From: a virus
DNA: 22,863 bases
Reading direction: 5' to 3' (one strand)
IMG/VR virus record: IMGVR_UViG_3300028025_001541
Coordinates: 1 to 22,863 of that record
The notes below the pieces were generated by a model. That model was not told the origin of the DNA and did not search any database. It saw only the letters and a list, made by a program, of their open reading frames with translations. Below are positions 1,641-11,365 of this stretch, in pieces. A program made the translations under genes and the position numbers. Each line of letters opens with the position of its first letter. The stretch's first letter is position 1.

Positions 1641-1759
1641 TATCCTGAACGGACCCACCAGCCCCGTCAGCGTAACAGACTGGTAGCAAGAGCCAGCCCA
1701 TTTCCCCGAATGGTCACTGAGGCTTGCGAACTCAAACAATAGAAGGGTGGATAGTTGCT
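1641..1759 (+). promoter_or_regulatory. Candidate structured RNA leader before the scaffold gene
   Basis: This gap is GC-rich compared with its surroundings (by hand count about 59% for 1646-1730). It can fold into nested elements: ACCAG 1657-1661 with CTGGT 1680-1684; GCAAG 1686-1690 plus CC 1693-1694 with GGCTTGC 1721-1727; and inside that CCATT 1698-1702 with AATGG 1709-1713 around a TCCCCG loop. TCAG 1667-1670 in the first loop could pair with CTGA 1717-1720 as a pseudoknot. CCACC 1655-1659 can pair with GGTGG 1746-1750 in the ribosome-binding region of the scaffold gene, in competition with the first hairpin. A cis-acting leader that tunes scaffold or capsid expression is the simplest reading, but this is inference from base pairing only. 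Confidence 0.45.
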
Positions 1760-2267: not shown

Positions 2268-3221
2268 ATGGCTAATGCCTATACATCAACTGGCTCATCC
2301 TCATTCGGAGGTACAGTCGGTTCAGCAGGTTTGGTACAAAAGGCCTATGACCGCCTCTTGGAGTTCGCACTCCGCGATGAGCCGCTCATTCGTGCCGTCG
2401 CTGATAAGCAACCAACAAACCAGACACAACCTGGTTCTACAGTTGTTCTACAGCGCTTCGTAGACCTTTCAACACAGACCACTGCTCTTACTGAAGATGC
2501 AGACCGCGACTCTGTTGCACTTGCTACACCAACCTCAACAACTATTACTCTTGCAGAGTATGGTAACTCAACACTCGTAACACGTGCTCTTCAACTATTC
2601 AGCCTTGCTGATGTTGACCCAGCAGTTGCGAACATCATTGCTGTTAACCTTGCAGACTCTATCGACGAGATTGCAATGACAACACTTCGCGGTGGAACTA
2701 ACGTTCTATACGCAGGTGCAACAGCAACATCAACAGCAACAATTACTGCTGCTGCTACAATCTCAGGTGCTAACATCCGTAAGGCTGTTCACAAGTTACG
2801 TGCTAATAAGGCTAAGGCTCGCAAGGGTTCACTTTATTGGGCAGGTATGCACCCAGATGTAACATTCGACTTGATGGCAGATTCATCTGCTACAGGCTGG
2901 CTCATCCCTAACCAGTACGGTGCTTCACAGGACCGCATCTGGGCAGGAGAAGTTGGTCAGTACGGCGGAGCGTTCATCGTAGAGTCACCACGTCTATACG
3001 TGGGAACTGATGGTGCTTCATCTGCTAAGAACTACCGCACAATTCTTTGCGGTAAGCAAGCACTTGCACAGGCTGTGGCAGAAGAGCCACACACTGTAAT
3101 CGGACCAGTAACAGATAAGTTGATGCGCTTCCGTCCAATCGGATGGTACGGCGTACTCGGCTTTGCACGTTACCGTGAAGAGGCACTATACCGAATCGAA
3201 TCAGGTTCATCAATCGCTTAA
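2268..3221 (+). CDS. Major capsid protein, N4-gp56-like
   Basis: The product is 317 residues with a very strong ribosome-binding site (GGAGGTGA just before ATG 2268), fitting a highly expressed virion protein. After a flexible Ser/Gly N-terminus come 'KAYDRLLEFALRDEPLIRA', 'STVVLQRFVDLS' and a Thr-rich strand leading into 'ITLAEYGNSTLVTRALQLF', the pattern of the N4-gp56 branch of HK97-fold capsid proteins (LTE...T..V...QYGN...T). The C-terminal half includes a 'GMHPDVTFDLMADS' segment and ends 'LGFARYREEALYRIESGSS'. The position directly after a scaffold-like gene supports the assignment. Codon use is more biased to C-ending codons (TTC, CGC, AAC, ATC) than in neighbouring genes, as expected for high expression. 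The HK97 fold is a family-based inference. Confidence 0.9.
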   Translation: MANAYTSTGSSSFGGTVGSAGLVQKAYDRLLEFALRDEPLIRAVADKQPTNQTQPGSTVVLQRFVDLSTQTTALTEDADRDSVALATPTSTTITLAEYGNSTLVTRALQLFSLADVDPAVANIIAVNLADSIDEIAMTTLRGGTNVLYAGATATSTATITAAATISGANIRKAVHKLRANKAKARKGSLYWAGMHPDVTFDLMADSSATGWLIPNQYGASQDRIWAGEVGQYGGAFIVESPRLYVGTDGASSAKNYRTILCGKQALAQAVAEEPHTVIGPVTDKLMRFRPIGWYGVLGFARYREEALYRIESGSSIA

Positions 3222-6597: not shown

Positions 6598-8751
6598 ATG
6601 ACAATACGCAACTATTCTTCACGTTCACAACAGACAAGCCTATCGGCTGGTATTAATGCTAGCACTACATCAATGACAGTCGGTTCTGCACTTGCATTAC
6701 TTGGCGGTATATCTGGTCCTAGTATTTCAACTACTTCAACATTTACTGTTGTTATTGACCCAGATACAGCGCTTGAAGAAATTGTAGATGTTACTGGAGT
6801 CTCTGGTGATGTATTAACAATTATTCGTGGAGTTGAAACAAGTCCTGTTGCTGGTCAAGCACACGGTGCTGGAGCAGTAATTCGCCATATGGCTATCGGG
6901 CGTGACTATCGTGAAGCCAATGCTCACATTGAGAACTCAACAACCGCACACGGTCTAACTATTGCTAACGTCCTTGAGACATCAGACACTAATATGATTA
7001 CCACAGCGATGCTCCAGTCTAACTCTGTGACTACCGCTAAGATTACTGATGCTAACGTAACTACAGCCAAGATTGCTGATAGTGCTATTACCTCTGCCAA
7101 GATTGCAGACCTAACCATTGCTACAGGTGATATAGCAGACTCTGCTATCACAAGCGGTAAGATTGCAACTGGTGCTGTAGGCACAACTAAGATTGATGAC
7201 CTATCGATTACAGAGGGCAAGTTAGCCCCAACAGTAGTAACTACGGGTAAGATTGCAGACTCAGCAATTACTAGCGCCAAGATAGCAGACGGAACTATCG
7301 TCGCTGGCGACATTGCAGATGGAGCCATAACCTCAGCAAAGATTCTTGATGGAACTATTGCTACTGGAGATATTGCTGACAGTGCTATTACTTCGGCTAA
7401 GATTGCCGATGGCACTATCGTTGCTGGAGACCTAGCAGACGGAGCGGTAACATCTGCCAAGATTCTAGATGGCACAATTCTTAACGCTGACATCAATGCA
7501 AGCGCAGCGATTGCCAAGACTAAGTTAGACCTTGGTGGAACTATTACTTCCGCTGACCTTGTTGATGGAACCATCGTTGCAGCAGATATTGCTGACGGTA
7601 CTATCACAGCAGCCAAGATGGTTACAGACCCATATGCCCGTGCTAACCACACTGGTACACAATTAGCAGCAACTGTTTCTGATTTTGATACACAGGTACG
7701 CACATCTCGTTTAGACCAAATGGCTGCGCCTACTGGCTCAGTATCTGTTAATAGCCAAAAGATTACATCTCTTGCTACACCTACAGTTAACACTGATGCT
7801 GCTACTAAACTTTATGTAGATACAAAGGTCGCAGACCTAGTTAACTCAGCACCTTCTACACTTGATACCCTTGGTGAGATTGCAACAGCAATTCAATCAG
7901 GTGGAACTGTCTATGACTCTTTTGTACTAAAGGCTGGCAGCACAATGACTGGTGCTCTTACCTTGTCAGGTGCTCCTACTGTAGACCTACACGCTGCTAC
8001 AAAGGCTTATGTAGACACTGTGGCAGGTTCTGCTACCGCTGCTGCAGCAAGCGCTACAGCCGCTGCCGCATCCTATGACTCATTCGATGACCGCTACCTT
8101 GGTAGCAAGTCATCTGCTCCATCTGTAGACAATGATGGTAATGCACTTATTACAGGTGCTATTTACTGGGATTCAGTATCTAATGCTATGTATGCTTGGA
8201 CGGGTTCCGAGTGGGGTTCAATCTCATCAACTGCAGCAATTTATCGTTATCGTTTTAACGCTTCTGGCGGAGAAACGTCAGTATCAGGTGCTGACTCTAA
8301 TGGATTAACATTATCTTATATTCCTGGTAAGGCTCAAGTATATCTTAATGGTGTTCTCCTTGTTCCAACAACTGATTATAGCGCAACTAATGGAACAAGT
8401 ATTACATCTCTTTCAGCCCTTGCTGCTAGCGATGTACTTGAAGTAATTACATTCACATCATTTGAATTAGCCTCTGCTATCGAAGAAACAATCTTTGATG
8501 CTAAGGGTGATATTCTTGTAGGTACAGCAGCAGATACTGTTGGTAAACTTGCGCTAGGGACAAATGGATATTATCTCAAGGCTAACTCATCTACAGCAAC
8601 TGGACTTGAATGGTCTGCTGTATCTCAATATTCATTACCTTCTCAAACTGGTAATGCTGGAAAGTTCTTAACAACAAATGGTTCATCCGAATCTTGGGGA
8701 GCAGTAACCACTGACCCGACACCAACTGTATTCCTCTTGATGGGAGCATAA
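6598..8751 (+). CDS. Tail fibre protein with repeat shaft (717 aa)
   Basis: Domains in order: an N-terminal beta module (residues about 10-100, with 'IDPDTALEEIVDVTG' and 'TIIRGVETSPVAGQAHG') that likely anchors the fibre; a shaft of decapeptide-type repeats at about 134-341 (ITSAKIADGT / IVAGDIADGA variants); then segments typical of phage fibres, 'TKLYVDTKVADLV', 'STLDTLGEIATAIQ', 'GSTMTGALTLSG' and 'ATKAYVDTVAG'; an Ala/Ser collar near residue 480; and a C-terminal part with 'GQVYLNGVLL'-like ('KAQVYLNGVLLVP') and 'FDAKGDILVGTAADTVG' modules. The protein ends 'PTVFLLMGA'. It is expected to trimerise and project from the tail to contact the host surface. RBS is ATAGGAACATAA. No C-terminal endosialidase-type chaperone is seen. 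Confidence 0.85.
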   Translation: MTIRNYSSRSQQTSLSAGINASTTSMTVGSALALLGGISGPSISTTSTFTVVIDPDTALEEIVDVTGVSGDVLTIIRGVETSPVAGQAHGAGAVIRHMAIGRDYREANAHIENSTTAHGLTIANVLETSDTNMITTAMLQSNSVTTAKITDANVTTAKIADSAITSAKIADLTIATGDIADSAITSGKIATGAVGTTKIDDLSITEGKLAPTVVTTGKIADSAITSAKIADGTIVAGDIADGAITSAKILDGTIATGDIADSAITSAKIADGTIVAGDLADGAVTSAKILDGTILNADINASAAIAKTKLDLGGTITSADLVDGTIVAADIADGTITAAKMVTDPYARANHTGTQLAATVSDFDTQVRTSRLDQMAAPTGSVSVNSQKITSLATPTVNTDAATKLYVDTKVADLVNSAPSTLDTLGEIATAIQSGGTVYDSFVLKAGSTMTGALTLSGAPTVDLHAATKAYVDTVAGSATAAAASATAAAASYDSFDDRYLGSKSSAPSVDNDGNALITGAIYWDSVSNAMYAWTGSEWGSISSTAAIYRYRFNASGGETSVSGADSNGLTLSYIPGKAQVYLNGVLLVPTTDYSATNGTSITSLSALAASDVLEVITFTSFELASAIEETIFDAKGDILVGTAADTVGKLALGTNGYYLKANSSTATGLEWSAVSQYSLPSQTGNAGKFLTTNGSSESWGAVTTDPTPTVFLLMGA
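6996..7620 (+). repeat. Coding repeat array of the tail fibre shaft
   Basis: About twenty imperfect units of roughly 30 bases each encode variants of ITSAKIADGT / IVAGDIADGA. A higher-order 120-base (40-residue) period is clear: the unit starting at 7267 repeats at 7387. Over the first 31 codons of these two copies I count 13 identical codons, 16 synonymous differences and 2 amino-acid changes, so the protein repeat is preserved while the DNA repeat is eroded. It is not a CRISPR array: there are no unique spacers and the frame is maintained. Confidence 0.85.
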
Positions 8752-9992: not shown

Positions 9993-11264
9993 ATGGCAGT
10001 CAAAAGATTTAAGGAATCATCTGTCTTAGTTGACAAGAGATACCAATCAATGCTTGTTGGAAATGTTGGATATCAACCATACTGGATGTCTACTGTAGAT
10101 ACACGCATAGGTGGAGTTGCTGTTGACTCAAATAAAAATGTCTATACAGTCGGTGCTTTCTTAACTGGAGCAAGTGATAGAGATACGTACACGATGAAGA
10201 TAAATGAACGTGGCGCATTTCAATGGGCATACAAAATGGCTTTTGCTGGAGATGACTATCTTCCAAATAATCCAATGATTACTGTCGATTCATCTGGAAA
10301 TATTGTTACAGGTTCTTCAAGCGCAAATGATTCTAACTGGTATATATACTCACTAAATTCATCTGGCACATTGCAGTGGCAGAAAACTACCAGTAATGCT
10401 AATGCAAACTTAGTTATGCAAGGTTATGATTTCTCATCTGGATATATCCTTGGATATGGTAGTTGGTATATTGGTGCAAACTTTAAGCCATATACATTTA
10501 AGTGGAACTCTAATGGAAGCATAAACCAGACAAGTTACTGGAATTCAACTGGAGCCAACTTTAATGGACAGGCTGGTTGTGTTCTTTCTAATGGAGATAT
10601 GGTTGTTGGTGGCGGAGAAAACGCTGGAAACACTACCTCAGTATGGAAATGGACTGGCACTGGTAATGGCTGGACAAAAACATATTCACTAGGACAATAC
10701 CCAAGAGCAATGAAATCAGACTCTCTTGACAACATATATGTAGCAACAGAGGGTGGAGTTTTATTTAAGATAAATTCAAGTGGCACTACTCTTTGGCAAA
10801 AAAACAGTGGAACTGGTGGATATGCAAAGCAGATTTTTATATCTGGTTCTTCTATGTATGTTCTTTATAGAACTACAGTATCAACCAGAACTGCTATTCA
10901 GGTTACAAAATATGATTTAGATGGAAATATTCAATGGCAACGTCAGGTTACAAATTCTACATATAACCTACAACCACAAGGAATATTCGTTGATTCGAGT
11001 GGCAATATGTATATTAGTTCTTGGATTAACAACAACACAGCATCAGTAATTATGAAACTTCCAGCAGACGGAAGCCTTACTGGAACATATACTGTCAATG
11101 GCTTTACATTTGTATACGGAACAAGTTCATATTCTACAACGACAACAACGTATACTGAAGGAACAGTAAACGGTAGCGCAACAACTGGTTCATTAACTAA
11201 TACCGACTGGACCGCTACACGTGGAAGTATCACTCCATCTTATACAGCAGCAGCACTCAATTAG
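9993..11264 (+). CDS. Beta-propeller-type tail protein (423 aa)
   Basis: After an N-terminal 'MAVKRFKESSVLVDKRYQS' come repeated blade-like units: 'GVAVDSNKNVYTVGAF', 'ITVDSSGNIVTGSSS', 'YSLNSSGTLQWQKTT', 'MKSDSLDNIYVATEGG', 'FKINSSGTTLWQKN', 'YDLDGNIQWQRQV' and 'IFVDSSGNMYISSW'. The alternation of (V/I)D(S)SGN.Y(V/I) and (L/Y)..(S/D)G.(L/I)QWQ is the signature of SBBP/PQQ-like beta-propellers, probably six or seven blades over residues 35-360. The last 60 residues are Thr/Ser/Tyr-rich. No catalytic residues are apparent. It lies between the two copies of the adhesin pair, so it is probably a tail-tip component that binds host surface or carries the adhesins. Four bases separate it from the previous gene. 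Confidence 0.75.
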   Translation: MAVKRFKESSVLVDKRYQSMLVGNVGYQPYWMSTVDTRIGGVAVDSNKNVYTVGAFLTGASDRDTYTMKINERGAFQWAYKMAFAGDDYLPNNPMITVDSSGNIVTGSSSANDSNWYIYSLNSSGTLQWQKTTSNANANLVMQGYDFSSGYILGYGSWYIGANFKPYTFKWNSNGSINQTSYWNSTGANFNGQAGCVLSNGDMVVGGGENAGNTTSVWKWTGTGNGWTKTYSLGQYPRAMKSDSLDNIYVATEGGVLFKINSSGTTLWQKNSGTGGYAKQIFISGSSMYVLYRTTVSTRTAIQVTKYDLDGNIQWQRQVTNSTYNLQPQGIFVDSSGNMYISSWINNNTASVIMKLPADGSLTGTYTVNGFTFVYGTSSYSTTTTTYTEGTVNGSATTGSLTNTDWTATRGSITPSYTAAALN

Positions 11265-11272
11265 GAGAAATA

Positions 11273-11365
11273 ATGAGTAAAGCAAGAGACCTAGCAAACC
11301 TAGCAACATCAGCAGCCGTAGATATCGAAGCCCTAAAGGTTGAAGATATTATGGATTCTAAGTAA
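11273..11365 (+). CDS. Tail-region microprotein (30 aa)
   Basis: The short frame MSKARDLANL...EDIMDSK starts at ATG 11273 with a good ribosome-binding site (TTAGGAGAAATA) and ends at TAA 11363-11365. The 'SKARDLANL' opening is a motif I associate with the N-termini or internal joints of phage tail fibres. The gap between the propeller gene and the second adhesin pair is otherwise unexplained. It may be a real microprotein or a remnant of a fibre gene; the clean ribosome-binding site favours translation. Confidence 0.5.
   Translation: MSKARDLANLATSAAVDIEALKVEDIMDSK

Follow-up and report, generated by a model that had tools for sequence, protein, structure and literature searches.

What does a GC-rich, non-coding stretch do directly ahead of the scaffold and major capsid genes of a phage? 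The proportioning of scaffold to capsid in tailed phages is an old question, for which autoregulation in phage P22 is the main case, and we know of no conserved RNA element tied to it. In the 22,863-nucleotide stretch of viral DNA analysed here (positions 1 to 22,863 of IMG/VR record IMGVR_UViG_3300028025_001541, hereafter the window), a non-coding gap of 119 bases extends from the stop codon ending at 1640 to the scaffold ATG at 1760, and its GC content of 0.53 compares with mostly 0.32–0.47 in the flanks, as a preliminary description of the locus had noted. That description proposed a new cis-regulatory or packaging-related RNA, and the first of these suggestions is well supported by covariation in relatives, an obligatory linkage to the scaffold gene, and the lack of a match in Rfam.

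The gap and its neighbours lie on the plus strand. The upstream gene (498–1640) belongs to PHROG 8424; the scaffold gene (1760–2236) encodes 158 amino acids and is preceded by the RNA in every relative, and the major capsid gene (2268–3221) belongs to PHROG 1357, major head protein, and to the Pfam family Phage_capsid_3. The scaffold protein of the window matches PHROG 7813, whose function is not annotated, and its predicted model is all-helical (mean pLDDT 69). It is homologous to the scaffolds of soil phages (hhalign profile comparison: probability 92%, E = 5e-7), some of which have been labelled "scaffolding protein" by their depositors. Further downstream, a long open reading frame at 6598–8751 contains many near-repeats of "SAKIADGTIVAGDIADGAIT", which probably form the repeat of a tail fibre.

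Distribution and linkage to the scaffold gene

Relatives of the scaffold protein number 457 in IMG/VR, of which 80 were kept, and two in GenBank phages ("ct2KA10" records); one GenBank relative is LanE43-AprF5, a cultured Planktophila phage and one of two isolated from the Rimov reservoir (PMC10202952). Wherever a locus extends far enough upstream, the gap holds the same element. The profile search reaches scaffolds down to about 45% identity, and a pattern scan adds about 118 loci, nearly all of which lead into a scaffold homologue where enough downstream sequence is available; the exceptions are contig ends and one chance match (L083), in which the covariance model R1 is negative. R1 finds exactly one copy in 160 of 160 scaffold-homologue loci and in the window, always at the start of the scaffold gene, with a few partial copies at contig edges, one of them (L052) too short to be significant alone (E 0.04). 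No convincing second copy was found in 22 longer records (20 long contigs, F5, and one metagenome-assembled genome (MAG)); whole records gave weak second matches in G015 (E 0.017), which is a chance GTTGTT-ATG-AACAAC, and in G005 (E 0.18).

The genome collection yielded a single match, on a phage contig within an Actinomycetota MAG, where the gene order is the same, which fits an actinobacterial host. The 248 genomes of the order of that MAG gave no further RNA match, and the one weak match in 396 genomes of the phylum (L328) was rejected, as it lies without a scaffold gene or credible capsid similarity. No scaffold homologue was found on plasmids, and a scaffold profile search of the genome contigs gave no matches. 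In Rfam 15, the window has no match even at E 10 and nothing reaches a gathering score, and in six related loci tRNAs alone reach the cut-off; the sub-threshold hits to STnc420 and PhotoRC-I, the latter on one soil hairpin (16.5 bits, cut-off 45), were judged to be due to chance. No report of the leader RNA was found in the open-access literature, a scope that leaves aside subscription papers and preprints. The leader pseudoknot RNA is carried by hundreds of freshwater viruses, and by soil relatives that infect Actinobacteria. As a separate observation on the neighbouring capsid gene, the Planktophila phage capsid in OX376640 and OX376641 (6720–7910 in OX376641) aligns in two pieces, with about 1190 nt for 317 amino acids, which suggests an inserted domain relative to the window capsid.

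Architecture and covariation of the leader RNA

The conserved sequence begins with TAGAATCC right at the upstream stop codon and extends past the scaffold start codon to 1768, so that the limits first given for the element, 1641–1759, fell short of its full length. At the 5′ edge (1638–1644), which overlaps the upstream stop codon TAA (1638–1640) and reads TAATATC in the window and (T)AGAATCC in relatives, conservation climbs from about 0.3–0.6 to 0.8–1.0 among 194 upstream sequences. The P1 hairpin (1645–1670) is formed by 1645–1652 and 1664–1670, with A1648 bulged in the window phage and 8 bp elsewhere. The loop of P1 (1656–1661) pairs with 1680–1685 to form the covarying H-type pseudoknot P2 (1656–1685), and the intervening linker cGTAnnAGa (1671–1679), between P1 and the 3′ strand of P2, is conserved in all 68 aquatic sequences and in 19 of the 21 from soil, where it takes the form GTAn(1-6)AGAC. 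The pseudoknot is followed by a compound stem (1686–1727), recovered by RNAalifold and supported by changes on both sides, which is composed of P3 (1686–1690/1723–1727), P4 (1693–1696/1717–1721), and P5 (1698–1702/1709–1713, with a CCCC loop at 1704–1707). Three nested stems had been predicted and are found as P3, P4, and P5; a pseudoknot had been predicted as well, and exists, but the contact proposed for it, from the P5 loop to the 3′ side, was wrong.

The in-frame continuation past the upstream stop codon, which in the window stays open for 33 codons and would encode an Arg-rich peptide, had been considered the less appealing explanation. This stop codon lies 3–14 nt ahead of the P1 helix across copies, which is the geometry of a readthrough pseudoknot, but the in-frame extensions, anywhere from 0 to 201 codons long, are unconserved, every frame through the RNA is closed in 151 of 198 copies, and the upstream neighbour in soil phages is a tRNA. 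The gap as a readthrough or frameshift signal of the upstream gene, or as coding sequence, is therefore rejected, its probability being negligible; the combination of conservation and covariation in relatives with the absence of codon-like conservation instead favours a cis-regulatory RNA, and neither outcome that had been named as refuting that proposal was observed. A promoter or other DNA-level signal is highly improbable. The TAGAAT at the 5′ edge resembles a −10 element, but no −35 element is enriched in the 194 upstream sequences, the transcript would start inside P1, the corresponding site in soil phages is occupied by a tRNA, and a DNA site is not expected to show compensatory base-pair changes.

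Folded alone, the window gap is no more stable than its shuffles (MFE −26.2, z +0.83, with 156 of 200 shuffles as good); as this single-sequence fold is uninformative, the structural case depends on relatives. Helices P1–P5 and a start-codon repeat, P6, were defined on an alignment of 68 diverse sequences (A3), in which 95.9% of the cells pair, as compared with 30–41% in slid controls, and 20 pairs are changed on both sides (12.8 in shuffles), corresponding to 292 such cells (83 in shuffles). Changes on both sides affect 6–7 of the 8 pairs of P1, where 98–99% of the cells are paired, and 10 of the 14 pairs of P3–P5. RNAalifold, which cannot predict pseudoknots, independently recovers P1, P3, P4, P5, and P6. 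Covariation was further assessed by a home-made, R-scape-like test that served as a substitute for R-scape, a G-test with average product correction whose 100 nulls were made by placing the substitutions anew on a FastTree tree of 190 unique sequences. Eight pairs reach E ≤ 0.01 in this tree-aware test, three in P1, two in P2, one in P3, and two in P5. A3 pairs 20–49 and 22–47 of P2 hold 29 and 33 double changes and have E = 0 in the 100 nulls, as do A3 pairs 55–93, 65–81, and 68–79 of P3–P5; beyond these, E = 0 occurs only for cross-combinations inside P2, and a pair of neighbouring positions at the Shine–Dalgarno sequence (125–128) has E 0.06.

A competing pairing of CCACC (1655–1659) with GGTGG (1746–1750) had been proposed as a switch that hides the ribosome-binding site of the scaffold gene. 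This pairing can be drawn in 86% of the cells, against a shuffle mean of 84.5%, has one pair changed on both sides against 1.2 expected, and gives no signal in the tree-aware test, and its 5′ strand already forms the covarying P2, all of which speaks against the switch. The same pairing, or one between a P3 strand and TTGCT, would be the off state of a riboswitch, or of a sensor that responds to a small molecule or host factor. Most sequences allow both pairings (judged by eye for the P3 strand and TTGCT) and the loops are conserved, but neither pairing covaries, the Shine–Dalgarno sequence lies outside every conserved helix, Rfam similarity is absent, and the RNA was never found ahead of another gene, which makes such a sensor improbable. 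The conserved unpaired nucleotides, GTAnnAGAC, AGC, and CCC, suggest specific recognition.

The Shine–Dalgarno-like AGAAGGGTGG (1741–1750), unpaired in the conserved structure, is present, exactly or nearly so, in 196 of 198 distinct copies; it lies 9 nt from the ATG in the window and 5–9 nt in relatives, and the spacer around the ribosome-binding site is ACTAACAACGAATAG-like. The base of P3 lies 28–39 nt from the AUG in freshwater and 17–22 nt in soil phages, a distance that places the fold at the 5′ edge of the 30S binding area and leaves the Shine–Dalgarno sequence exposed. A ribosome-recruiting enhancer of the standby or IRES-like kind, in which the 30S subunit would dock on the folded RNA beside the Shine–Dalgarno sequence, would account for the constant short distance of the P3 base ahead of that sequence (12–21 nt in freshwater, 7–11 nt in soil), as well as for the unpaired, A-rich spacer and the high conservation of the Shine–Dalgarno region. 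Such an enhancer is a serious rival reading but on the unlikely side, as the Shine–Dalgarno sites are recognisable already, and the hairpin at the start codon would oppose initiation.

This last hairpin, P6 (1754–1768), is the inverted repeat GTTGCT-ATG-AGCAAC, which would hold the start codon in its loop (−4.8 kcal/mol, z −3.4). Codons 2 and 3 are AGC AAC in 180 of the 180 freshwater genes that have Ser-Asn there; elsewhere in those genes AGC makes up 9.8% of Ser codons and AAC 49% of Asn codons, and most other conserved scaffold codons vary. The letters GCAAC are kept despite an extra codon in L084 and another reading frame in L115. Judged from these sequences, the constraint around the start codon acts on nucleotides. 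The P6 pairs show no covariation in A3 and, since the repeat is invariant, the pairing itself remains putative; soil phages lack the upstream half of the repeat. At column 49 of the scaffold alignment, an internal Glu is encoded by GAA in all 179 genes and neighbouring conserved codons vary, which may be a second nucleotide-level constraint or chance.

Relatives in soil phages

The window capsid is 44–48% identical to those of Streptomyces phages of the Beephvirinae, in which the scaffold gene is preceded by a tRNA array, with a leader in the interval that separates it from the last tRNA. The best unfiltered R1 match falls on this leader in all seven Streptomyces phages examined, with weak scores (E 0.003–0.09), and the same pseudoknot is visible by eye. 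A scan with the Streptomyces scaffold provided 31 soil loci, 21 of which were used for covariation; in this set there is independent covariation in P1 (9 bp), P2, P3, and the compound stem, with changes on both sides in 20 pairs and in 88 cells (24 in shuffles). The soil model R2 gives a single copy in each of the 31 soil loci, and on freshwater loci it matches L216 (E 0.0046), L115 (E 0.1), and L268 (E 0.9), the others being unmatched. As the reciprocal model matches are weak, common descent of the RNA is argued from position, topology, and motifs combined: freshwater and soil leaders share their position, helices, pseudoknot, and unpaired motifs, which comprise GTAn(1-6)AGAC before the 3′ strand of P2, AGC after P3, the CCC loop, and GG ahead of the 3′ strand of P3, and the scaffolds and capsids of the two groups are homologous. 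Taken together, the freshwater and soil data show a leader RNA whose structure is under selection, and which is bound to the scaffold gene, single-copy, and old.

The tRNA array, of about 2 kb between the upstream gene and the leader, holds about 14–23 tRNA genes in most of the complete loci and ends with tRNA-Val (L286–L289 and L291–L293; L299, L302, L308, L312, L318, and L324), and the soil P1 starts at the 3′ end of the last tRNA. A tRNA or tRNA-like identity of the leader itself was rejected, as ARAGORN found no tRNAs in the freshwater loci scanned (L036, L040, L210, and L115) and the window has no Rfam match. Two further observations concern single records: the weak R2 match at 11184–11281 of the window (16 bits, E 0.034), away from the scaffold gene, is probably due to chance, and the major head protein of Streptomyces phage JXY1 (NC_048854; L293, 3025–3893) is annotated as two open reading frames where relatives have one, reflecting a frameshift or a sequencing error.

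Probable control of scaffold synthesis and comparison with known leaders

In a large group of actinophages, the scaffold(-capsid) mRNA carries the element as its structured 5′ leader; composed of an H-type pseudoknot and a compound hairpin, the leader very probably acts in cis on scaffold expression. RNA distances correlate with those of the scaffold (r = 0.61; partial 0.37 given the capsid, and 0.06 for the capsid given the scaffold), although the scaffold adjoins the RNA and physical linkage alone could produce this correlation. The upstream gene, whose distances do not track the RNA (r = 0.16), lies outside the system, and in soil phages the RNA stays with the scaffold even though the tRNA array parts it from that gene. 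The evidence is neutral on a packaging role, which thereby gains no support; the element is single-copy and always in the scaffold mRNA. The leader may serve to balance the production of scaffold and capsid.

A purely structural role, in mRNA stability or ribosome recruitment, also fits the same data. As a 5′ stabiliser or roadblock, the knotted 5′ end would shield the abundant scaffold-capsid mRNA from the 5′-to-3′ decay carried out in Actinobacteria by RNase J, the protected end arising by endonucleolytic or tRNA 3′ processing. The pseudoknot does lie at the 5′ edge, with the structure clear of the Shine–Dalgarno sequence, and because the soil P1 begins where the last tRNA ends, tRNA processing would expose it as the 5′ end of the mRNA. 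The freshwater loci scanned, however, keep the RNA without tRNAs, and a roadblock would not need unpaired bases and the start region to be so strongly conserved; stabilisation, a serious rival reading, is on the unlikely side.

The reading tentatively favoured here, by analogy and at somewhat less than even confidence, is that of an autogenous translational operator with the scaffold protein as its putative ligand. Because the conserved fold leaves the Shine–Dalgarno sequence free, repression would require a bound factor. Free scaffold protein would bind the pseudoknot or stem once procapsid assembly stops consuming scaffold, and the bound protein would then cover the adjacent unstructured stretch and the start hairpin and shut down initiation, such that scaffold supply would track assembly; the last on/off step in freshwater phages would take place at P6. 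A bolder version, in which scaffold binds the RNA on its own messenger, procapsids nucleate at the site of translation, and this contact reports assembly to the ribosome, is very unlikely; if true, it would make the leader part of head assembly, in an RNA-guided, assembly-sensing module kept in freshwater and soil actinophages.

The closest parallel is the leader of T4 gene 32, where a pseudoknot serves as the nucleation site for binding by the protein that the gene encodes, and translation is repressed (PMC535899). In the T4 and RB69 gene 32 operator (PMC535899), as in the scaffold leader, an H-type pseudoknot comes ahead of a region with less structure that contains the ribosome-binding site. 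Both leaders precede the gene for a protein needed in large amounts. In contrast to gene 32, which encodes a single-stranded DNA-binding protein, the scaffold leader adds the compound P3–P5 stem and a start-codon hairpin, the UUAAA/UAAA repeats found around the T4 ribosome-binding site are not seen, and the ligand, known in T4, is a proposed one. The operator reading is favoured by this gene 32-like layout together with the autoregulation of the P22 scaffold. For the latter protein, work by King, Casjens, and colleagues between 1978 and 1985 reported self-repression at a post-transcriptional level, and the control proposed for the leader is likewise post-transcriptional and tied to assembly. 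The P22 scaffold is unrelated to that of the window, and to our knowledge no conserved leader RNA structure accompanies its autoregulation. In the RNA phages MS2 and R17, the replicase operator is a start-codon hairpin at which binding of a virion protein stops initiation. P6 resembles this hairpin in layout, but has a short loop containing the ATG and no bulged A, and protein binding to it is only putative.

The leader is thus a real and old RNA element of a known general kind, the structured phage mRNA leader, whose function we infer. The cyanophage cis-regulatory motifs manA, wcaG, and PhotoRC-I (PMC2864571; RF01716) are likewise structured leaders of phage mRNAs known from metagenomes; they precede metabolic or photosynthesis genes and have no homology to the scaffold leader. 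In phages of the abundant freshwater Actinobacteria and in those of Streptomyces alike, a conserved, covarying leader constantly accompanies the scaffold gene, and the existence of cultured phage–host pairs in both groups opens it to experiment as a defined RNA target. The covariance model can be used to annotate such head modules in metagenomes.

Short hairpins also occur upstream of the presumed scaffold gene at 2030–2126 of L290 and in L326 and L327 (Bacillus Pagevirus, capsid 30% identical). The hairpin loop can pair downstream, in Pascal (GCGTC-ctgagtat-GACGC, with ACTCA) and in Page (CGAC..GTCG, with CTCA), and a TTTTCC/GGAAAA hairpin then adjoins the Shine–Dalgarno sequence; Palmer (L325) differs. 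These hairpins are possibly a version of the same idea, or chance.
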